Origin: Prasinococcaceae sp. CCMP 1430
Taxonomy: Eukaryota; Prasinodermophyta; Palmophyllophyceae; Prasinococcales; Prasinococcaceae
Direction: 5' to 3'
Assembly: GCA_013416795.1 (NCBI GenBank)
Contig: RQSC01000026.1
Coordinates: 222,377 to 269,334, forward strand
DNA length: 46,958 nucleotides
The translations under genes and the position numbers were made by a program. A model generated the notes under the pieces. It was not told where the DNA came from. It did no database searches and saw only the letters and a list, made by a program, of their open reading frames with translations. Shown here one piece after another: positions 12,554 through 33,555 of this stretch. Positions within the stretch are counted from its first letter, which is position 1, and every line of letters starts with the position of its first letter.

Positions 12554-14237
12554 TTACACCGTCGGCGCGGGCGTGGCGGCCTCGTCGTGGACGTGGCAAT
12601 AGGTGACGGGCGGCACCTGCAAGTACGTGACGCTCGCTTTCTCGTCGCCGAGGAAGTCCCGTGCGGCGGCCACGGCGTCGACCACCGAGTCCTTGCACTC
12701 CCACTTGAGCACGTCCGCGCCGCGCCTGTCCTTGGCGCCCACGCAGAAGACCTTGCTTACGCTGTCCATGCCGTGCGCCGCCCAGGTGTACATGTAGAAG
12801 CCGTGCACGCCGGCGGGGCCCTTTCCAGCGCGGTAGATGTCGTTAAGGCGCTCATTCGTGGCGAAGCCGTCCTGAAAGCGCTCGAACTCGTCGAGGTCGC
12901 CGTGTTCGGCGATGACGCCCTCGAAGAGCTCCCGGTACGTCGTGTGCGCCGGCTCGCTCCACTCGTAGTGCATCTCGTTCACCACGATGGCCACGCCGCC
13001 CTCCTTGAGGAGCGGCAGGCCGCCCACGTACATGTTGTAGTAGTACCCCAGCGCGTACGTGTTGACCAGCAGAGGGTTGCAGTACATGTCCTTGGTGTAC
13101 GGCCCCAGCGCGGTGGGCGCGATGATGAGGATGCCCGCCTGGCCCTCGACGTCGAGCACCTTGTCCTTGTAGCACGCATCGAGCGTGCGCTCGTGCACGG
13201 CCTCCGTCTCGCCCGCGTTGACCTCCAGCAGGCCGAAGGGCGCGCGGATGGCCCAGAAGACGCGCATTCGCAGCCACAGCGGGATGAACCTGAGCGCGAA
13301 GACCGTCACGCGCGCGACGAGCTTCTGCACGAAGTTCATGCGGCGCATGAGCACGCTCAGCCAGCTCATGTACCACGGGAAGAGGTTCTCGTCCACCACG
13401 GTCTCCACGTGGAAGATGTCGATGGACTTGGCCATCTCCCGCCCCACGCGGCCGAAGGACTTGTGCAGCTGCGAGCGCTTGGGGTCGTACAGGCTCTTGG
13501 TCTTCTTGAGCGTGTCGCAGTCGTGGTTGTGCCTCAGCGAATTGTACGACACCATGCCCGTGGCGTAGCTCTTGTAGCCGCCGTCCATCGGCACATAGTT
13601 CACGTTGGCGTAGATCGCCAGGTCGCTCTCGGCGAACTCTTTGCACACCTCCACGTCCTCGCCGTGGCGCGTCTTTCCCAGGTGCTTCGAGTGCTCCGCG
13701 TCGATGGCGTTGTAGTTGAACATGCGCCCCTGCGGGTAATACTTGTTGAAGAGCTTCTTCCCGCACACGTGCTTGAACTCGTCGGGCCTGAGGAAGCGGT
13801 GCAGAGCAATGCTGGAGATGAACTTGATGTCGGTGACGCCCTCCTCGACGCACACCTGCTCGCAGTACTCCATGATGAGCTGCCGCAGGTCGGGCGATTG
13901 CATGGGGGGCAAGGGGACGCTGACGTCGTCGAAGGCAAACACGACGCTCGGGTTGTCCTTGTCGCGCTTGAGCGCCCGCAGCTTGTCTCGCAGCGGCGGC
14001 TGGTCGCCGACGGGGTTGTCGACCGCGCGCGCGATCATCTCGCGCTGCCGCCGCGCGTCGCGCACGCCGTGCGCGCGCACGCCGCCGTACACGACGCGCG
14101 TGCCCGCGGGGAGCGCCTCGATGCGCAGCGTCTCGCCCGCCTGGAAGAGGAACTCCTCGCCGGGCGCCGACTCGAACACCTCCGCCGCGTGCACGGGCGG
14201 CGAGTCCAGGCTCGGCGCGGACACGCGCGCAACGGAG
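12554..14237 (-). CDS. LarA-like nickel-dependent racemase/epimerase family protein (DUF2088), 5' end in gap
   Basis: 561 residues visible, TAA at 12554; the N-terminus runs into the N block at 14238. The family racemises or epimerises 2-hydroxy acids such as lactate using a nickel-pincer nucleotide. Family marks: DNPVGDQPPLRDKLRALK, VFAFDDVSVPLPPM (like VSDITRPVP), SSIALHRFLRP (position of the catalytic GTHR His), HLGKTRHGEDVEVCKEFAES, DGGYKSYATGMVS (Lys aligned with the cofactor-bearing Lys184 of Lactiplantibacillus LarA) and RHNHD (aligned with Ni-ligand His200). The residue aligned with catalytic His174 seems to be Asn/Val in ANVNYVPMDGGYK, so activity may differ. The C-terminal 250 residues (WLRMRVFWAIRAPFG..., then VTYLQVPPVTYCHVHDE) extend beyond the bacterial enzyme as I remember it. 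The substrate is unknown. Confidence 0.75.
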
Positions 14238-14796
14238 NNNNNNNNNNNNNNNNNNNNNNNNNNNNNNNNNNNNNNNNNNNNNNNNNNNNNNNNNNNNNNN
14301 NNNNNNNNNNNNNNNNNNNNNNNNNNNNNNNNNNNNNNNNNNNNNNNNNNNNNNNNNNNNNNNNNNNNNNNNNNNNNNNNNNNNNNNNNNNNNNNNNNNN
14401 NNNNNNNNNNNNNNNNNNNNNNNNNNNNNNNNNNNNNNNNNNNNNNNNNNNNNNNNNNNNNNNNNNNNNNNNNNNNNNNNNNNNNNNNNNNNNNNNNNNN
14501 NNNNNNNNNNNNNNNNNNNNNNNNNNNNNNNNNNNNNNNNNNNNNNNNNNNNNNNNNNNNNNNNNNNNNNNNNNNNNNNNNNNNNNNNNNNNNNNNNNNN
14601 NNNNNNNNNNNNNNNNNNNNNNNNNNNNNNNNNNNNNNNNNNNNNNNNNNNNNNNNNNNNNNNNNNNNNNNNNNNNNNNNNNNNNNNNNNNNNNNNNNNN
14701 NNNNNNNNNNNNNNNNNNNNNNNNNNNNNNNNNNNNNNNNNNNNNNNNNNNNNNNNNNNNNNNNNNNNNNNNNNNNNNNNNNNNNNNNNNNNNNNN
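14238..14796. other. Assembly gap (559 Ns)
   Basis: Run of N. It hides the 5' end of the LarA-like gene and probably part of the divergent promoter shared with the ankyrin/RING gene. Confidence 1.
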
Positions 14797-14975
14797 CGGC
14801 GCGCGCCCGCGCGCGCAGGCGGGCGCGCGCGTGCCCACACCCGTGCCCGTTCGGCGCTGGAATGCGCCGGCGGGGCTGTTGAGAGCGGGTGCGCGCAGAG
14901 AGAGAGCGCTGTGTCGGCCACGCGAGCGAGCGCGCTGCCGACGAGGTGGCGGTGGTAACGCAAGCGCCAGCGACG

Positions 14976-17900
14976 ATGGGACGCAGGGTGGACGACGCCG
15001 AGCTGCAGGCGGAAATCAGCGACGCCGTGTTCCAGTGCAGAAGCGACGTTTCCCGGGCGAAGCGGACCTTCCAAGACATCGTCAACCGCGCGGGGCGTGA
15101 GGAGGCGCTGCACGCCGCCTTGCAGATTGCTGCCAAGCTCGACTTCGTGGAGGTGGTGAAGTACCTAGTCGAGAATGGCGCAGACCCGGCCTTCGTGCCG
15201 GCCAGCGATGACGACCTCTTCAAGTACAAGATGTTCACGCCGATGGGCAGCGCGGCGCAGACGATCGCACTCGACTCCGCCCGGGAGATGTCCGATCAGA
15301 AGCTGTTCCTCCGTGGGGGCACTGCCGCGCATGCCGCGAACGGATGCCTGCACACAGTGACGCACATAGGCCTGTCGCCCTTGATGATCGCCGCCAAGAG
15401 CAACAAGGGCACTGCGCCGCAGATGGTCAAGCTGCTGCTCGACCGGGGAGCAAATCCATGCCAAGTGACCAACAGGCACGACAACATCCCGAACACGCCG
15501 CTGATCGTCGCAACGTACTACAACAAGCCGGAGGCAGTCAAGCTGATCTGCGCAGCCATCAGGCGGGGCAGGCCCTTCTACGCTGACGACAGCGGCGCTG
15601 CGCCCACCGGCCAGAAGAAGAAGAAGAAGGCGAAAAAGGGGAAGACGCCCCAACCTTCACCGGGGTGCTGGGAAGAGTGGACCGAGGCCAACATGGTAGA
15701 CGACCAGCCTGGCAACAACACCGCGCTCCACCAGGCTGCAGCAAAAGGATTCGTGGCGTGCATCGAGGCCCTCCTCGATGCCTCTGCCGACCCCAACCGC
15801 GCGACCAAGAGGAGCAACAACACGCCGCTCATGCTCGCTGCCCGGGAGGGGCATTTCGAGGCTGTCAAAGTGCTTGCAGCGCGCGGAGCGAACTCGCGGA
15901 GGGAGAATGCCGAGGGAATGAATGCCTTTGGGCTTGCCGCCGAAGCCGGGCACTTCGATATCATGTGTGAGCTTGCGTCGACCCCGGCCGAGAAGTTGGA
16001 GGTGCAGCTCGCAATCGATGCGTTAGGGTTGTCAGACGACGTACCCGCGCTCGTGGCGGAGAGCAGCGATGACGAGGACGGCAGCTATGCATCCCAAAGC
16101 GACTCTTCTGGAGCGGACGATTCGGAGAACGAGGGCGACGAAGGTGGCGAGGCGCAGCGGGCTGCGTCTCGTTCCCCTTCTGTGCCGCCGAACGACCGGC
16201 GTGAGGCGTCCAGGCGCCCGGAGACGGTCCCGAGCAAGCCATCTGCGGCCGCGGCGAGTGTGTCCGATGCGAACGAGCCACCGCCCCTTAGGTCAGATGA
16301 GTCCGAGGGGGGCACAGATACGGCGAGCGAAGCCGACAGCGACGAGAGTGTGCCGGAGCTGGAGTCTGACAGCTCCGACGACGATGCGTCGCACGAGAAG
16401 TCCGTGTCAAAGAAAGCGCCAGCACCCGGACCAACAGAACCCATCACCGCTGGCGCCGTCACGGAGCTGGTGGAGTGCAAAGTAGGCGCAAACAGGCCAC
16501 GGATGCCGGCGCTGGTACTCAATGTGGTGGCAGTCTGGTCTGGATCCAATGCGCGCACGATGGAACCTTTGCAATCGAATACTGAGGTCGCTGCCACAAC
16601 GGGAACATGTTTCCCTCCGATCGACCTGCCGAGGGCCAAGGACACGCGGCCCGACTGCGTCTGCCTCTCGCTGTCCGACGGCGAGTGGCTTTTCCAGGCT
16701 TTCTTGTCGCAGGTGTGCGCGCCGAGTGCGGCCATCAAGCCTGGCCTGAGGGTGAGATTGGAGGACTACGATACCTTTGGCGGCGACTTTGCGGCTGTGG
16801 TGATCCACAGACTGTCAACGCTGGAGAGGGCGCGCGAAGACCTTCCGGCGGGCCGTCAGGTGACGCCCGCCCGGTGGGCGAAGGACTACGAGAAAGCCCC
16901 GTTGGGCCCGAGCACCAGATTCCACTTCACGATGGGCGCGGTGAACGCGTTTAATATGATGAGGAAGAAAGGCATCGGGCGCGCGACAATTGGCAAGTAC
17001 AAGGTGTCACCAGGCGTGCATACCATGGAGATCGTCGTGCAATTTGCTGGTGCGATGCGAGTGGACTATGCAGATGCATGCTTGGCGATGATCGCAGACG
17101 GCACGGCCCGCGCCAACGTCCTGCTCAACGGCCAGGCTGAGAGGGAGGTCATTGACGGGCACGTCCCTGCCAACGCCATCATTCGCATCCAAGAGTGGGA
17201 GGTGCATCCGGACAACACCGGAATTGCGCGTATCAACAGGCTCAAGGTGCTCCGCAAGTACTACCGCCCTCAGTACAAGGCACGGAGCCCGTGGCCGGGC
17301 ACCGAATGGGAGCCGCATCCATTGGTAGTGCCTGCCGATGAGTTGCAAGTGGTGCGAGACGCGGTCAAGTGCGAGAAGGAGGAGAAGAAGGCAAGGTCGA
17401 AACAAGCCAAGAGAGAAGCCGCTGCAAGTGGCAAGTCGCGATATGCCGAGCCCGAGGTGGTGCAGAGTGAAGACGCTTCGGCGTACGCTCGCATGCGAGC
17501 CCAGGAGATGGGCGCTGGCAAGGGCAAAGAGGCTGCGGGGGAGCCGAAGAATGAGGAGGACGGGCACGAGCACGTCGCGGAGGCGCCTCGCGCGCACGAC
17601 TCGGGCCGGTCGAGACGCGAAGAGGAACAGGAGCGTCAGAAGGCCCTGGTGGAAGAGCGCCGTCTGGAGAAGGCAGCCAAGAAAGCGGCCAAGAAGAAGA
17701 AGAAGTCTGCAAAGGTTGCCGTGGATGGGGATGCCACCGCGGACGCCAAGGCGACAGAGGAGGACATAGAGCCCCCTGATGCTACGGAGGCAGCGCTCAC
17801 GCGTGGGGCTGACCCCTCCACATCTGCACGCCCGTCTGTCCCCTCCAAAAGCGCCGGGCCATCCACCACGGCCGCGCCGACCGTGAAGATTGCAGTGCGC

Positions 17901-19728
17901 GCGGGCGCCAACTTCAAGCCGAAGATTGGCAAGTCCATCGCCGACGAACTCAGGGAAGAACTTGGTGTGGAGCAAAACGAGGAGCAGGTCTTTGAGACTG
18001 GGCGCCCGGTGCAGACGAACGTGTGGGAGGCCCGCGGACGCCAGGCGCACTGTCGCGGTGTTTGGGAATCGCGGGAGCGTCATGATGACTACGACGACTA
18101 CGACGCGTGCGGATACGAATACGAATACGAATACGAGGGCGGCTCTTTTCCTCCCCCTCAGCCGCCGGGGACGGGGTACAATGGGGCATACCAAGATCCA
18201 TTGCCCGTCCCCCAGTCAGCGCCGGCGCAGATGGCCCACATGCCGCCAGCGATGCCGCCGCTGGGAGCTGTGCACTTGGGTCGGCAGACCGCGATGCGGT
18301 CAGTCGCTGGTGACCCGAGGCCGAGCGCCGCGGCTGCGGCTGCAGCCGCTGCGGCAATAGAGGCGGTTTCGAGGCCGAGCCCCGCGGCTGCGGCTGCTGC
18401 CACTGCGGCATTAGAGGCGATTTCGCTTCGCGAGCGTAACGCGCCGCCCTCGCCAAGGCCGGTGCCGTCAGCGCAGCAGCCCAGAGAGTCGGACAAGAGT
18501 TCAGGGGACGCCAAGAAGAAGAAGAAGCGCAACAAAATCCGCAAGATCTACATGGACGATGATGACGAGTGCGTGTTCTGCCTCGATGAACTGCGAGGGA
18601 AGGAGTGGGTGGCTGTGGTCGGCGGGTGTGGGCACGTGGCCTGCTGGGAGTGCGCCCAGGACTACATGGAGAGGGTAGGGCGTGGCAACACTGGCCCGTC
18701 GATTTTGCCCACGACGTTCACGTGCTTCAAATGCAGAGATGTCTTTGAGGAGAAGGACATTTCGAAATGGCGGGTTGAGGCCGCAATTGACATGGCAAGG
18801 CGTTTCGAGGAGTACAACAGCAGGGAGGGCGACGAGTCAGGCGCTGAGCTCGTGGCCACGGGTTCGGCACGAGGCGACGCCGCTGTTGTGGTCGCGGACC
18901 CGGGCGCCGACGCCGTGGGCCCGTTGTCGGAGGGCGAGGATCCCCCGGCCCGGGATGCCGCTGGCACAAGCACAGACGGTGCTGGAGTTGATTGGAGCGG
19001 TCTTTCCGCCGCGAGTGCAAGCGCAGCGTCGCCGACATTTCAGGCGGCTCATATATCCGAGCCGATTGTCGCGTCAACCGCAGTCTCGGCCATAGGGACC
19101 GACCTGTACGGCGGCAGCAGCTCGATGTCGCCGGCGTCGATGCTCGCACAGCTGGGGCAGGAGGCACGGCCGAGCCCAATGCCGCCGACCGCCGTTGGAA
19201 TGGGCGCGTCCGCGACCTCTGCGATGTCATCGGCGGTAGCCAACGCGGGGGGTACGGTGCAAGGCTCCTTGGGCTGGACGTCGACAGGCGCCTCTGCGCC
19301 CCACTCTCCCCCCCACGCGCCTGCGCATACGTCGACGACGCCGAGAGTGCTCTTGCGCCGCCCTCCACCGGGTTTCTCTGCGACGCCGCAGAACACGCCA
19401 CTCGCGCGCGCGATGGTGCGTACCACCCATACGAGCGCGCAGCCTCGCATGCCCCCAGGCGTGCCCGCACGCGCACCTGCAAGCGCCCTTCGAGCCCCTC
19501 TTACAGCCCTCCTGGTAGCTGACGCACGCGTGCTGGCGCTCGCGCGCGCAGGGCGACATTCGACCGGGCGCGCCACCGTACGCGCCCGTGCAGCCGTTCG
19601 CGCCCAAGGCGCCCCTAGCGGCGCCCGCACCCGCGCCCATTCCCCTTCCCGCGGCCAAGGGCAGCAGCGACGAGGGCGGAAGCGACGACGAGGACATGAT
19701 GGGTTTGCTCTTCATGGCGGAGGCATAG
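14976..19728 (+). CDS. Ankyrin - double RPA70N-like OB - RING protein, 1538 aa
   Basis: Two exons, 14976-19415 and 19552-19728, joined in phase 0 (donor GTGCGT, acceptor CGCGCAG). Order by residue: ankyrin repeats about 30-340 (NTPLIVATYYNKPEAVKLIC, NTALHQAAAKGFVACIEALL, NTPLMLAAREGHFEAVKVLA); acidic Ser/Asp/Glu linker 360-490; OB-like domain 497-618 (CVCLSLSDGEWLFQAFLSQV, VRLEDYDTFGGDF) resembling the N-terminal domain of replication protein A1; a second copy 645-766 (MIADGTARANVLLNG, IIRIQEWEVHPDNTG); a Lys/Glu coiled coil 880-911 (ERRLEKAAKKAAKKKKKS); Tyr-Glu/Asp and Ala-rich segments; RING about 1195-1255 (CVFC, CGHVACWEC, CFKC); a Pro/Ala tail ending SDDEDMMGLLFMAEA. The RING implies an E3 ubiquitin ligase; the OB pair suggests binding to nucleic acid or a genome-maintenance partner (inference). 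I know of no described protein with this order. The upstream open frame from 14889 lacks support. Confidence 0.8.
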
Positions 19729-19891
19729 TACAGCGCGCGCATTGGCAGCGCATCGGCGCAAGCTGGCGCGCGTGCCGTCAGATATGGGACTGTGAGACTG
19801 TTCACAACGCAGCACACGCTGCTCGCCACACCACGCGCGCCTCGTGCAGCGCGCCGCGCGCGGCGTGCAGCGGCGCGCAGTGCGCCAACCC

Positions 19892-20919
19892 ATGCGCTCG
19901 CGCGCGCTGGCGGTGGCGATGGCGCTGCTCGTGGCGGGTGCGACCCGGCGTGGAGGACTTCTGCGAGCCCGCGTGCGCGCCTGGCGGCGGCGGCGCCGGC
20001 GCACTGCCGGCGCACCTGCGGCTGACGGGCTGGGACTGCGCGGCCGAGTGCGACTATCGCTGCATGCAGGCGAGGGCAGCCGCGCGCGCGGCTGCGGGCA
20101 AGCGCGCACACAAGTACCACGGCAAGTGGGCCTTCGTGCGGCTGGCGGGGCTGCAGGAGCCGCTGTCGTCCGCGGCGAGCGTGGCGAACCTCCTCGCGCA
20201 CGCTCTTGCGCGACGGCGATGGCGGCCGGCGGAGCGCGGCGGGCCGTACGGCGCGCTGTGGATGGTGTACACCGCGGTGCACGTCAACGCGTGGGTGTGG
20301 TCGACAGTCTTTCACGCGCGCGACACGCGCGCTACCGAGGCAGCCGACTACCTGTCTGCGGCGGGCTCGCTTTTCGTGTCGGCAGCATGCGTGGCTGCGC
20401 GCACCTTGGCCGCTCGCACAGCAGCAGCACAGGTACGCAGCAGCCTTCCGCGCTTGCCAGCGGAGCGTGGGAGGGCGGGTGGGGGTCAGGCATGCGCACG
20501 CGCGGGCGCATGCGCGCGCCCTTGCGCACGTGCTGACCGCGCTCGCCCCGCGGGGGGGGCGAGAGCAGGCGGCGCTGGTCGCCTGCGCGCTGGTCGCCCT
20601 CGCCGCCCACGCGCGGTACATGCTCTTCGTCAAGTTCGACTACGGCTGGAACATGAGCGTGTGCCTCGCCGTAGGCGTGGGACAGATGGCGGCGGTCGTG
20701 GCGTGGGCGTACGTGGCGCGTCATCCGGCGCGGCGCTACCTGGCCGTGGGCATCGGCCTCATGTGCGCGTGCACGCTGCTCGAGGTGTTCGACTTTGCCC
20801 CGCTCGCGGGAGTTGCCGACGCGCACGCGCTCTTCCACGTGGCCAGCCCGCCGGTCATCCTCATGTGGTACGAATTTCTGCGGAGGGACGCCAACCATCT
20901 CGCCGAGAAGGAGCTCTAG
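19892..20919 (+). CDS. PGAP3/Per1-family GPI-anchor remodelling protein (apparent frameshift at the signal peptide)
   Basis: Membrane hydrolase of the CREST superfamily that removes an unsaturated acyl chain from GPI anchors in the Golgi/ER. Exons about 19892-20432 and 20569-20919, phase 0 (GTACGC...GAGCAG). Marks: WDCAAECDYRCM, HKYHGKWAFVRLAGLQEP, SVANLLAHAL, HVNAWVWSTVFHARDT followed by EAADYLSA, FDYGWNMSVC, and a C-terminal HALFHVASPPVILMWYEFLRR. Seven-helix topology is plausible. Odd: a good signal peptide (MRSRALAVAMALLVAGA at 19892) is one frame off the mature part, which starts near VEDFCEPAC at about 19947. There is no room for an intron, so a one-base error or a real lesion is present around 19935-19950. 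Confidence 0.85.
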
Positions 20920-20934
20920 CGCCTGCCCCGAGGG

Positions 20935-20936
20935 CT

Positions 20937-20971
<35 letters not shown>

Positions 20972-20972
20972 C
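20935..20972. repeat. (CT)n-(CG)n microsatellite
   Basis: 12 CT units followed by about 6 CG units, starting 15 bp after the PGAP3 stop, in its 3' UTR. Confidence 0.95.
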
Positions 20973-21011
20973 CGCACGCCGTGCTGCTGAGGGACACTAC
21001 TGTGTACTAAT

Positions 21012-28534: not shown

Positions 28535-29031
28535 CGCGGCCGGGCCGCGCCTCCGTCCAGCCGGCTGGCTGCCCCCCAGGGGCGGCCGGCGGGGGTTGGG
28601 CCCGGGGGTGGGAGGCCGGGGGGACACCACGCCCGCCGCGGCCTCGCGGCAGGTAAGCGAGGCGCGCGCACTGGCTGCAACGGCTCGCCGCGCGCGCGCA
28701 GCGTCGGTTGTGTGCGGTTGGTTGGGGATACCGGGCGCTCGTCGGTGGCGCGCCCGCCGGCGGCGCGCACTGTTCCACGACAGGCGGGTGGGTGCCCGCC
28801 AGCAGTGCGCCCGCGCGCGTGGGGTGGGGTGTGCATGTGGGGAAGGGGAGTTGGGGTTTAGCCGCGGCGACGCATCTGCGATCCTTCCCACCCTCGACCC
28901 TTACCTGCCTGCCTCACCCCAACCACCCGTACCCTGCTGGCTAACCCCGGAGCGGCGCCGCGCTGCCCGCTCGCGCAGGCCCACCCAGGCGCAGCGCACC
29001 CCTTGCCGCCGCGGGCGCGGCCTCCGCGGCG

Positions 29032-32000
29032 ATGGCGTTCGGGGACGGCGGCGAGCACTTCGTCGCCGTCGCGGGCAGCAGCGGCAGTGGGCCGCTCGGC
29101 GCGCGCGGCCCAGTTCGCGCGGCCGTGTACACCGCCAACCCGTCTGATGCCGAGTACACCTTCGCGCTTGTCGCATGCCCCGCGGTTGAGGGCGCGCTCC
29201 AGAACATCTACAACACGTTCACGCGTCTCGATCTCAACGTGCTCAACTCGTGGTTCGACGTCCACGCCGAGGATCCTGGACGCGGGCGCGCGGGCGCCGG
29301 CGGTCGGGTGGACGACGTGTGCGTGTGCGCCTTCCAGGCGGTGAACGGCGCGCTCGGTCAGCAGCACCCCAGCGAGAAGCTCGGGCGACTCGGACGGGCC
29401 ATAGCTGAGAGCGTCGCGTCGGGCGAGGGCGCGGAAGCAATGCCGGGCAACGCGTGCGACCCATTCGCGCGTCAAGCTGACGGGAAGCCGGAGTCCGATC
29501 TGAGTGCCGATAGGCTCAGGGAGGTGCTTGATGCGCGAATGACGCTGCGAGCGCGCCTCGCGGCACCACTGGTGCGCCTGTGCCAGGCCGAAGCTCTGGG
29601 CGGCGGAAGCACGGTGGAGAGCATGGTGAGAGTGGCGAGGAAGCGCGCGTCCCAGGCGTCAGCGCTCGACGATCCGCACTGCGGAGCCGACGTGGCACCG
29701 CCGCGATCGCAGCGTGGGACGGCATCAGCCGAGGCAGTAGTGTCTGTCGCTGGCAACGTGAACGTGTGGAATGGACCATCGCAGATCTCCAGTGTTGCGC
29801 CATTTTCGCGCTCCCCCGTCAGGTCGTGCGAGGCAGAGCGTGGCGCCGTTGGAGGCGGGAAGGCGAGAGAGGAGTGCGCCTCAGAAGCCGGAGGTGGTGC
29901 CTCATCGCAGCAACCTGCCCTGACCATCGTGCACTTCAAGACGATCAACCGTGCCAGCCTCATGCTCGATGTGTGCAAGGCGCTTTCGTCGCAGTGTGTC
30001 GAAGTGCTGCGCGCGCTCGCAACCACGCGAGAGAACATGGCGCTTGACACTTTCGAAGTGTGCGACGGCCGCACGCGCGAGCCTCTGAGCTTCGAAGCTC
30101 GAGAAGCTCTGGCGGACACGCTGGACAGTGCGCTGTGCGGGCGCAGCGTCCCAAGTGGTGGCGACCTCGGAAATGCTGCCGCTGCCGGGCACAGTACAGA
30201 TACGGGCTTGGCACGCAGCCGCTCACACCAGAGAGTGCAGCTGCTCGGAAGGATGCTTTCATCGCCATTGGACCATGCCATCTCGAACGCACTCGAAGCG
30301 GCGTACCTCGCTGAGGGGGCGGGGGAGCTCTCGCATGCAGATGAGCGTGCCCGGCGCGGGACTAGCGTCACATCTTCGCATTCCAACAGGTCGCACGCAC
30401 TCAGCACGAGCATGCGAAAGGATGGAAGCACCACAGACTCGCCCGCTCTCAGCAGATCGAGCTCGCGAAAGGGCCGGATCTCTGCTGATTCCATCTCGGA
30501 CGCTGGCATCGAGCAATTGCTCAGGTGCGCACGTGTGCGCGCGCACGTGTGCGCGCGCCTCCTGCAGGCGGCTCTGCCGAGTCCGTGTGTGCGCGCGCGC
30601 CTGCGCATGTCGCTGACTTCATTGATGCATGCTTGCGAATTCCCAACCAGTCAAAATGGCACCTCGGCCGTTACAGCCCCGCGTGCGCGCTACCGCCGAT
30701 CTAGCTTTGATCGCGTGCCATCATCCCAGTCTCCCGCAAGCGATTCCGGAACCGGTACTCCACGAGACGCCGACAGCGTTTCCGTGGAGGGCGCAGGCAC
30801 TGGCGTGGCGCGCGTGTCAATGATGCCTCGCCAGGGTGTGAAGCGTCGCCCGAGCCTAGCCCCCACCAATGCGCAAAGGAGAGAGGCAGGTGTGCGGACC
30901 CAGAAGCACGTCGCCGCAGATGCTGGCACGGGCCAGGTCCCGCCTGAGGCCGAAACCTCGCCCCCTCCAGCGCACGTGCAACGTCTGCTCGCTGAGAGTG
31001 CGACACTCTTGCTGTCAACGCTCGGGGTGGTGCCGGCGTCTGACAAGAGCAGTTCAGCGGACGCGCTCAAACTCTCGCTCGCGCGGCGCATGAGCATGCG
31101 CTGTTACGAGGCGGACGAGCCTATCCTGCAACGCGGAGATGCTGTGTCTGAGTGGACGGTGGTGGTGAAGGGCGAGGTGAGCATGCTACTTGGGTCATCT
31201 ACGCTCACACCCGTCGTCCTCGGCCCGGGCGATTCCTTCGGCGAGCTCGCCCTTCTTCACGACCACGTATCCAACTCGCCCATCCTCTCGTTGGGCTCAA
31301 ACCCAAAGCCAATGTCGCGCGGGGTGAGCAGGAATGATGCATCCAATGGTGCAGCCCCCGGCGGGCAAGACTCGCCGCAAGGAGACGCGGTGGGCGACGG
31401 TAGTCCTGCTAATGTCACCGATGGTCCAGCTGCTATGGCTGCACCCTCGGCGCTGGGCTCGGGTGCTGCTGAGGTTGTTTTGGCGGCGGGCAAGGAGCAG
31501 GGACCTGGCCCTGTGATTGCGTACGCTCTAGCACAAAGCGACTACCAGGAAGCACTGGCGGCATACTACGTTGCGCTTGATGGCGAAATGCGGGATGCGC
31601 TGTTGCGCGTGGCCGGTCAGGCGTCCTCCCTACAGACTCGCTCGAGCAAGCTCCAACGTAGCGCTTTGACCGACAAGGGCAAAGGTGCGCTCAACGCCTT
31701 GGCAGCAGCGTTGCTCGGCGAGCGCATGGTCACAGTTGAGGGCGGTGAGATCGCTTCTCAGTGTCGTCCAGAGCTGGTGTACGTTGTCGTGCGCGGGGCG
31801 TTGCTCTCTTACAGGCTGTCGGCTGCAGGCCTCAGCGGCAGCAAAGATGCCCCGAGGATTCTGATGAGGAGATGCTCGGTAGGGTCAATGGTCTGCACTT
31901 CACCGCTCGGCGTGAAGAGACTCCTCAGCATGGGCGAGCTCGGCGATGGTGCGGCCACCGACACGCACGACCTTGAATTTGAGGCTGTCCCCGAGGGATG

Positions 32001-33555
32001 TCGTCTCGTTCCTCTGCGCGCCTGTATCGTCAGCGAAGCGTTGGGTGATGGAGCGCCATTTGGTGCGTGGCGCAAGGCCCTCGAGGCGCATTTGAAGGAG
32101 TTGCAAGGAGTCACCACGGCAATGCCTGGTCTTGCCGCCGCATCAAGCGGCGACACGCCTCGCGGCGTCGGTAATGGAAGCCACACAGCAAGTGCTGGCC
32201 ACAGTCCCTCCGATCTGGAGTCTTTGAAGGGGAGTGTTGATTTCCCGGAGTCGCCATTTGGCTCGTCGAGTGACAGCACCCCGCGCTCATCGTGGATCGC
32301 AAAGCTCCTGCCGGCGTGCTGTGGCCCTCCAACGCCTCCTGGTGACGACGGCGGGGCTGGCCCTGCTCGGGTTGGCGGCGGGAGTCGATCGGCACTGTAT
32401 AGTGTGAGAGGGCCGGGTGATGGCGCTGGTTCAACAGTGTCTGCTCTCCTTAGGAATAATTGGAGCCGCCCTGTGTCGTGGCTGCGCGGAAAGTACGCCC
32501 GCCCGCTCGCTCTGGACGCCTTTAACATCGGGGGATGCATCGGCAAGGGGATGACTGGGCGCGTGTACCTGGCCACCCACCGCCCGACAGGCAAACAGTG
32601 TGCGCTGAAGGTGGTCGTGAAGGCGCGCATGCTGCAGATGGACGAGGTGGACCACATATTGGCGGAGGGCGACCTGCTCGCGCGCCTACGCTCGCGCTTC
32701 GTGGTCCCGCTGCTGGGTGCCTTCCAGGATGAGCACGCGCTCTACATGGCGTTTGAGTATGCCCCGGGTGGCGACATGTGGCACCATGTCTACCGCCGGA
32801 TGAAAGCTGGGCGTGGCCCGCTCTCCAAAGACGAGGCGCGGTACTACCTCGCACAGACAGTGCTCGCACTCGAGTCTGTGCACGAAGCTGGGGCGGTGTA
32901 CCGCGATGTCAAGCCTGAGAACTTGCTACTTACCGCGGACGGCAACTTGCTTCTGGCAGACATGGGCTTTGCTAAGGTCCTTGGACCCGGCGAGCGCACG
33001 ACCACGATCTGCGGCACGCCCGATTACCTGCCCCCAGAGATCATCAGTAGCCGTGGCTGCACGCGCGCGTGCGACCTCTGGAGTCTGGGTGTGCTGGTTT
33101 ACGAGATGCTCTGTGGTAGGGCCCCCTTCAAGAGCCCCACCACGCTGCAGACGTACACGAAGATTGCCGAGGTCGGAAAGGCGGGCTTCTTCCAGCCCGC
33201 TCGCTGGCCTTCTGCTATTGGCGCGACTGCACGCGACCTTATCACCAGACTGTTGCGCGCCAACGAAAACACTCGACTGGGGATGGGCGCAAGGGGGTTC
33301 GCGGACGTGAAGGCACACCCATTCTTTGCGGCCATAAAGTGGCGCGAGCTCGAAGCAGGCGATCTCGTGGCGCCGCTGAGGCCCGACGACGCGCACCGCG
33401 CCGCGACCAGCGGTGCGAAGAAGCCTCCTGGCGGCCATGGCGGCGCGTATGCGTGGCAGACGGAGGTCAACAGGCTGAGGCCTGGTAGCCCCGAGGACCT
33501 CATGTTCGCCGGCTTCCCGTCGGTCAACCGCTTCCACGAGGTTGCGCGCTCGTGA
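29032..33555 (+). CDS. ACT-ACT-cNMP-binding-AGC kinase fusion, 1507 aa
   Basis: Cyclic-nucleotide-dependent-type Ser/Thr kinase with small-molecule-sensing domains in front. Residues 28-122: ACT-like domain (EYTFALVACPAVEGALQNIY, LDLNVLNSWFDVHAED). 296-370: second ACT domain (TIVHFKTINRASLMLDVCKA, TRENMALDTFEVCDG). 390-660: Ser-rich disorder. 681-746: cNMP-binding fold (GDSFGELALLHDH) interrupted by an 80-residue insert before VIAYALAQSDYQEALAAYY, and lacking the usual Arg of the phosphate-binding cassette. About 880-960: a second, degenerate cNMP domain. 1161-1436: AGC kinase (IGKGMTGRVYLA, CALKVVVK, VYRDVKPENLLL, ADMGFAKVLG with DMG for DFG, TTICGTPDYLPPE), AGC tail to 1507. The 126-bp stretch 30525-30650 starts CAG|GTGCGC, ends CCAACCAG and is a multiple of three, so may be an intron. 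Otherwise intronless. Confidence 0.88.
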   Translation: MAFGDGGEHFVAVAGSSGSGPLGARGPVRAAVYTANPSDAEYTFALVACPAVEGALQNIYNTFTRLDLNVLNSWFDVHAEDPGRGRAGAGGRVDDVCVCAFQAVNGALGQQHPSEKLGRLGRAIAESVASGEGAEAMPGNACDPFARQADGKPESDLSADRLREVLDARMTLRARLAAPLVRLCQAEALGGGSTVESMVRVARKRASQASALDDPHCGADVAPPRSQRGTASAEAVVSVAGNVNVWNGPSQISSVAPFSRSPVRSCEAERGAVGGGKAREECASEAGGGASSQQPALTIVHFKTINRASLMLDVCKALSSQCVEVLRALATTRENMALDTFEVCDGRTREPLSFEAREALADTLDSALCGRSVPSGGDLGNAAAAGHSTDTGLARSRSHQRVQLLGRMLSSPLDHAISNALEAAYLAEGAGELSHADERARRGTSVTSSHSNRSHALSTSMRKDGSTTDSPALSRSSSRKGRISADSISDAGIEQLLRCARVRAHVCARLLQAALPSPCVRARLRMSLTSLMHACEFPTSQNGTSAVTAPRARYRRSSFDRVPSSQSPASDSGTGTPRDADSVSVEGAGTGVARVSMMPRQGVKRRPSLAPTNAQRREAGVRTQKHVAADAGTGQVPPEAETSPPPAHVQRLLAESATLLLSTLGVVPASDKSSSADALKLSLARRMSMRCYEADEPILQRGDAVSEWTVVVKGEVSMLLGSSTLTPVVLGPGDSFGELALLHDHVSNSPILSLGSNPKPMSRGVSRNDASNGAAPGGQDSPQGDAVGDGSPANVTDGPAAMAAPSALGSGAAEVVLAAGKEQGPGPVIAYALAQSDYQEALAAYYVALDGEMRDALLRVAGQASSLQTRSSKLQRSALTDKGKGALNALAAALLGERMVTVEGGEIASQCRPELVYVVVRGALLSYRLSAAGLSGSKDAPRILMRRCSVGSMVCTSPLGVKRLLSMGELGDGAATDTHDLEFEAVPEGCRLVPLRACIVSEALGDGAPFGAWRKALEAHLKELQGVTTAMPGLAAASSGDTPRGVGNGSHTASAGHSPSDLESLKGSVDFPESPFGSSSDSTPRSSWIAKLLPACCGPPTPPGDDGGAGPARVGGGSRSALYSVRGPGDGAGSTVSALLRNNWSRPVSWLRGKYARPLALDAFNIGGCIGKGMTGRVYLATHRPTGKQCALKVVVKARMLQMDEVDHILAEGDLLARLRSRFVVPLLGAFQDEHALYMAFEYAPGGDMWHHVYRRMKAGRGPLSKDEARYYLAQTVLALESVHEAGAVYRDVKPENLLLTADGNLLLADMGFAKVLGPGERTTTICGTPDYLPPEIISSRGCTRACDLWSLGVLVYEMLCGRAPFKSPTTLQTYTKIAEVGKAGFFQPARWPSAIGATARDLITRLLRANENTRLGMGARGFADVKAHPFFAAIKWRELEAGDLVAPLRPDDAHRAATSGAKKPPGGHGGAYAWQTEVNRLRPGSPEDLMFAGFPSVNRFHEVARS

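Follow-up and report, generated by a model that had tools for sequence, protein, structure and literature searches.

Reading frame and domain layout

The window analysed here is a stretch of 46,958 nucleotides (C72:222377-269334) from an assembly of the green alga Prasinococcaceae sp. CCMP 1430 (24.5 Mb in 145 contigs, about 67% G+C). At positions 29032-33555 of its forward strand, on which all features of the gene described below also lie, it holds a complete frame that runs from ATG to stop over 1507 codons with no internal stop. An ACT domain, part of a cNMP-binding domain and an AGC protein kinase domain are joined in this frame. The probability of 1507 open codons by chance at the base composition of the window is ∼10^-14. 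The G+C content is low at the second and high at the third codon position from the ATG through the stop, whereas upstream of 29032 this bias is absent, the change being abrupt. A sequence-only reading of the window had proposed a single frame of 1507 residues, and the exact ATG-to-stop length, the unbroken coding bias and the low chance probability all bear this out.

An in-frame stop just upstream of 29032 falls within a candidate 5′ UTR intron of 326 nt (28653-28978; GTAAGCG ... GCTAAC ... CGCAG); were this intron spliced, 29032 would be the first in-frame ATG. A second candidate intron, of 126 nt (30525-30650), would be in frame and would take up linker residues 498-539; this segment has GC-repeat character and overlaps no domain. 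The domain reading is the same with either candidate intron.

The proposed fusion of ACT, cNMP and AGC kinase domains in one frame is confirmed and recurs in a paralogue of 1608 residues on contig C78 (L017:1343-6166, minus strand), the frame of which has a uniform coding bias. We considered that the ACT part and the kinase could be two genes sharing an open frame by chance. The 67% G+C content makes stops rare and the linker may contain the short in-frame intron noted above, but the chance probability and the unbroken bias speak against this reading, as does the single frame of the paralogue with the same domain mix. Because the combination occurs in two proteins, an accidental joining or annotation accident is discounted, and we regard it as very improbable.

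Elsewhere in the window, a 2033-residue frame at 14889-20990 (+) contains ankyrin repeats, a RING finger and a Per1-like domain and is either a fusion or two adjoining genes. A LarA-type lactate racemase N-terminal domain lies at 12557-15238 (−), here in a eukaryotic genome. There is a run of N at 14238-14796, which accounts for the apparent dip to 34% G+C at 14001-15000. The Lhcb-type light-harvesting proteins of the genome have LHCI and LHCII of green algae and plants as their best PDB matches, which assigns the genome to the green lineage.

Kinase domain

The kinase domain occupies residues 1161-1451 (32512-33384). Pfam Pkinase matches residues 1166-1432 with an E value of 1.6e-58, and the best matches in the PDB according to phmmer are the PKA catalytic subunit (1e-58) followed by PKG1 (4e-56), in agreement with the AGC kinase of PKA/PKG type that had been proposed. 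The domain scores 198.6 bits against Pkinase and 91.7 bits against PK_Tyr_Ser-Thr; the distinction that had been drawn from the plant STY kinases, with their tyrosine-kinase-like catalytic domain, therefore holds. The glycine loop (GKGMTGRV), the catalytic Lys, the helix C Glu and the catalytic loop YRDVKPEN are intact, the activation-loop Thr is present in TTTICGTPDY and the GTPxYxxPE motif is kept. As read from the sequence, DMG stands in place of the usual DFG at residues 1310-1312 (32959-32967), and PPE stands where APE is usual. FAGF at residues 1492-1495 (33505-33516) is a candidate for the hydrophobic motif of an AGC C-terminal tail. A nine-row kinase tree placed neither of the two ACT kinases with support and gave no position for them within the PKA/PKG subgroup.

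ACT domains

The ACT domain at residues 292-370 (29905-30141) has good support from a profile built from 11 ACT domains in other genes of the same genome, with a score of 31-38 bits against a maximum of 7.7 bits in 2000 shuffles. The hhalign probability is 96%, compared with 0.3% for a control stretch, and in a one-to-one blastp comparison the domain is similar to the second ACT domain of the paralogue (31% over 101 residues, E = 6e-6). Pfam gives only a match below the cut-off (PF22754, E = 0.0034), and weak GlnD ACT matches also cover these residues. The best library match is the plant bHLH ACT-like family, and by its sequence the domain is of the plant ACR/bHLH type. Two ACT domains had been proposed. 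The second of these is the domain at 292-370; the first, at residues ∼28-122, stands on weaker ground. This stretch scores 10.2 bits with the ACT profile (maximum of 2.6 bits in 2000 shuffles) with an hhalign ACT probability of 28-39%, and a Pfam search of it gave no match. We list residues 30-125 or thereabouts (29119-29406) as a possible ACT-like domain.

The loop of the ACT domain at 292-370 reads NRASL, with Ser in the Gly position of the DRxGL found in most other ACT domains of the genome. For this reason a purely dimerising or scaffold role is possible, and the domain may act in this way instead of binding a metabolite. Taken further, both the ACT and cNMP domains would be structural, the ACT domain forming homodimers or heterodimers and the kinase being constitutive or controlled by phosphorylation, with no small-molecule input. 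The replaced Gly and the kinship to the plant bHLH family, some ACT-like domains of which dimerise (PMC8202348), favour such an arrangement. However, the closest ACT matches in the genome sit in enzymes and signalling proteins that are usually read as allosterically controlled, and the retention of two degenerate regulatory modules in two proteins suggests regulation. We consider a wholly structural role to be unlikely.

cNMP module

Residues 683-745 (31078-31266) match the first part of a cNMP-binding domain as far as FGELALLHD. The Pfam cNMP_binding match covers residues 690-746 only (8e-8, above the cut-off) and ends shortly past FGELALL; the structures nearest to residues 683-745 are those of Plasmodium PKG and PKA-RI. 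FGELAL is intact and retains both the Glu that contacts the ribose and the Ala typical of cyclic-nucleotide sites. FGELALL is followed by HDHVSNSP and then by a low-complexity insert of ∼65 residues (746-810; 31267-31461), at the place where PRAAT would be expected in the phosphate-binding cassette. The split cNMP-binding domain of the sequence-only reading is thus recovered. There is no in-register Arg in the cassette, and the PKG-type sequence FGE(x)AL...PRxA is not kept. Beyond the insert, residues 811-845 (31462-31566; GAAEVV ... VIAYALAQSDYQEAL) were picked out by eye as a possible remainder of the domain, and GAAEVV at 811 may be a remnant of PRAATV; these residues gave no profile matches.

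We also considered that the insert could be an intron left unspliced that masks an otherwise complete cassette: of 37 in-frame GT-AG pairs, none restores the motif. There is a splice donor with a branch-like site at 31324, for which the best acceptor (106 nt) would break the frame.

The degenerate second cNMP domain that had been proposed was not substantiated. The stretch concerned, residues 880-1020 or thereabouts (31669-32091), has a profile score of −3.1, which was equalled or exceeded in 395 of 1000 shuffles, and an hhalign probability of 0.7%; a second domain would be plausible only from visual inspection and from comparison with the two-domain paralogue. Of a PKG-like tandem pair, one half-domain is clear and the second scores at chance level. 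AlphaFold models calculated without relatives for residues 21-382 and 643-1029 have a mean pLDDT of about 36.

Linker phosphorylation motifs

The linker ahead of the cNMP module is rich in basic phosphorylation motifs. A motif scan gave RRSSF, of PKA/PKG type, at residues 555-559 (30694-30708). KRRPSL at residues 604-609 (30841-30858), upstream of the cNMP domain, is substrate-like and on its sequence is a candidate autoinhibitory or autophosphorylation site, and RRMSM lies at residues 685-689, at the start of the cNMP part. The protein has four RRxS-hydrophobic motifs where 0.62 would be expected (P = 0.0035), and three of the four lie within residues 555-689. A classic PKG pseudosubstrate (RRxA/G) was looked for and does not occur in the sequence; the motifs present are of the substrate-like RRxS kind. 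The sequence of the paralogue contains no RRxS motifs.

The paralogue and related proteins of the genome

The domain order in the single frame of the paralogue is ACT-cNMP-cNMP-ACT-AGC kinase. Its ACT domains lie at residues 391-470 (PF24931, 1.4e-4) and 1042-1085 (PF22754, 29.5 bits, above the cut-off of 27.6), and its cNMP module matches PF00027 with 41.3 bits (cut-off 27.5). Both of its cNMP domains are degenerate, with 14-15 bits each by profile, a score reached by 0 of 1000 shuffles. The two proteins differ in their domain order: the ACT domain that they have in common by direct similarity stands ahead of the cNMP module in the window protein and directly ahead of the kinase in the paralogue. 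The Arg that binds the cyclic phosphate is absent or displaced in both proteins alike.

This Arg is kept in the motif by nine of ten other cNMP domains examined in the genome (PRAAT, PRAAS, KRSAT etc.), and the decay of the cNMP site is therefore specific to the two ACT kinases. Canonical members are encoded as well: L002 is a catalytic subunit of PKA type (381 bits to PKA), L034 and L037 are cNMP proteins in which the motif reads PRAAS or PRAAT, and two kinases (L004 and L006/L020) have cNMP domains that are better preserved. The PKG-like kinase of L020:2216-4888 (−), on contig C43, has an N-terminal Parkin co-regulated (axonemal) domain and two cNMP domains. There are nine nucleotide cyclase matches.

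ACT domains of the same ACR/bHLH-like type are attached to several other proteins. One is fused to a bHLH protein (contig C52). A glycogen/starch phosphorylase (L019:1302-4184, minus strand, contig C84) has an N-terminal ACT domain and matches the PHOB/PHO3 type, and a trehalose-phosphate synthase/phosphatase (L049:2190-6431, minus strand, contig C28) has a C-terminal ACT-like domain at residues 1043-1087 (Pfam E = 0.0064). In L018:3739-7605 (minus strand; C15:281454-282323) a class III nucleotide cyclase domain is preceded directly by two tandem ACT domains, the second of which is above the Pfam cut-off; the gene includes a run of N. An ACR9/10-like sequence with several ACT domains (L012; C75:846036-846947, minus strand) lies within an open frame of 9736 codons that contains a run of N and is probably not one protein.

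Proposed mechanism

PKA and PKG are the textbook cyclic-nucleotide receptors, and the sequence-only reading had suggested a kinase that integrates metabolite and cyclic-nucleotide signals. The ACT domain at 292-370 and the retained FGELAL agree with this; the lack of an in-register Arg, the insert and an undetectable second cNMP domain do not. In a true dual-input kinase the cNMP domain would still bind cAMP or cGMP and the ACT domain would add a metabolite input. The above-threshold Pfam match with its intact Glu and Ala would suit such a protein, as would the presence of cyclases and of canonical PKA/PKG-type proteins in the genome, and the insert together with an alternative strand could supply the Arg in three dimensions. 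On the other side stand the missing Arg, the length of the insert, the failure of any splice form to mend the motif and the degeneracy of both cNMP domains in the paralogue, and we consider dual sensing to be rather unlikely. As the Arg is missing or displaced in both ACT kinases and kept in the canonical PKA/PKG-type proteins, control by the ACT domain is the likelier of the two.

The reading that we favour, with middling confidence, is a green-algal PKA/PKG-like kinase that contains its regulator within one polypeptide and receives its input mainly through ACT and not from cAMP or cGMP. The layout would comprise at least one ACT domain on the N-terminal side, a substrate-rich linker, a remodelled cNMP module and the kinase. 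While the kinase is at rest, KRRPSL and its neighbours in the linker would occupy the active site, as in PKA-RII and PKG. The main signal would be a change in the ACT domain, through binding of a metabolite (probably an amino acid), dimerisation or both, rather than cAMP or cGMP; this change would shift the cNMP-like scaffold, so that the kinase is freed or locked, and autophosphorylation of the RRxS motifs could lock in the active state. The autoinhibition step is not common to both proteins, judging from the motif-free sequence of the paralogue. Physiologically, such a kinase might couple amino-acid or nitrogen status to the use of carbon, which is the most natural guess because the genome adds ACT domains to a cyclase and to two storage-carbon enzymes.

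Comparison with known systems

In PKG of animals, apicomplexa and chlorophytes, too, a cNMP module precedes an AGC kinase within a single chain; the window protein differs from PKG in the added ACT domain, the degenerate cNMP sites, DMG for DFG and the long low-complexity linkers. The plant kinases STY8, STY17 and STY46 similarly have an ACT domain on the N-terminal side of the kinase domain. They belong to the tyrosine-kinase-like group and have no cNMP domain, and their ACT domain reportedly binds metabolites and regulates the kinase (Eisa et al. 2019, as cited in PMC7020404). The plant ACR and bHLH ACT-like domains, the closest sequence families to the ACT domains found here, occur in proteins that lack both a kinase and a cNMP domain. 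PHOB/PHO3, the known ACT-containing starch phosphorylase that occurs in green algae and in some plants (PMC5005325), has this kind of ACT domain at its N-terminus; it acts on storage carbon and not on amino acids, and it is not a kinase. In the open-licence literature we found no paper that joins ACT with a cyclic nucleotide-binding domain, an AGC kinase or a cyclase catalytic domain. A search of viral contigs and of other genome contigs, collections that do not cover eukaryotic algae as such, yielded no relatives.

In trypanosomatid PKA the phosphate-binding Arg and control by cyclic nucleotides have both been lost and the enzyme is activated by nucleosides (PMC10959531); it offers a precedent for a loss of cyclic-nucleotide control in the ACT kinases. 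The kinetoplastid PKA regulatory subunit likewise has cNMP domains lacking the phosphate-binding Arg (PMC10959531), but it is a separate subunit and carries no ACT domain. Its loss of Arg is paired with a compensating, ribose-contacting Glu (PMC10959531), whereas FGELALL of the window protein keeps Ala there. Plants reportedly lack the typical PKA and PKC subfamilies (PMC3499706); chlorophytes have retained several cNMP-AGC kinases (PMC4143559).

More broadly, and tentatively, PKA/PKG-like kinases could have been rewired at least twice in this alga, which probably represents an early green lineage, from cyclic nucleotides to metabolites sensed by ACT domains. They would belong to a set of ACT fusions, on kinases, a cyclase, glycogen phosphorylase and a trehalose-phosphate synthase/phosphatase, that links amino-acid status to storage carbon and cyclic-nucleotide signalling. 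Some relatives of PKA and PKG may thus have changed what they sense. If this is true, the decay of a cNMP site together with the gain of an ACT domain would be one route by which a kinase can switch its input, and would provide a second case alongside the nucleoside-activated PKA of trypanosomatids.
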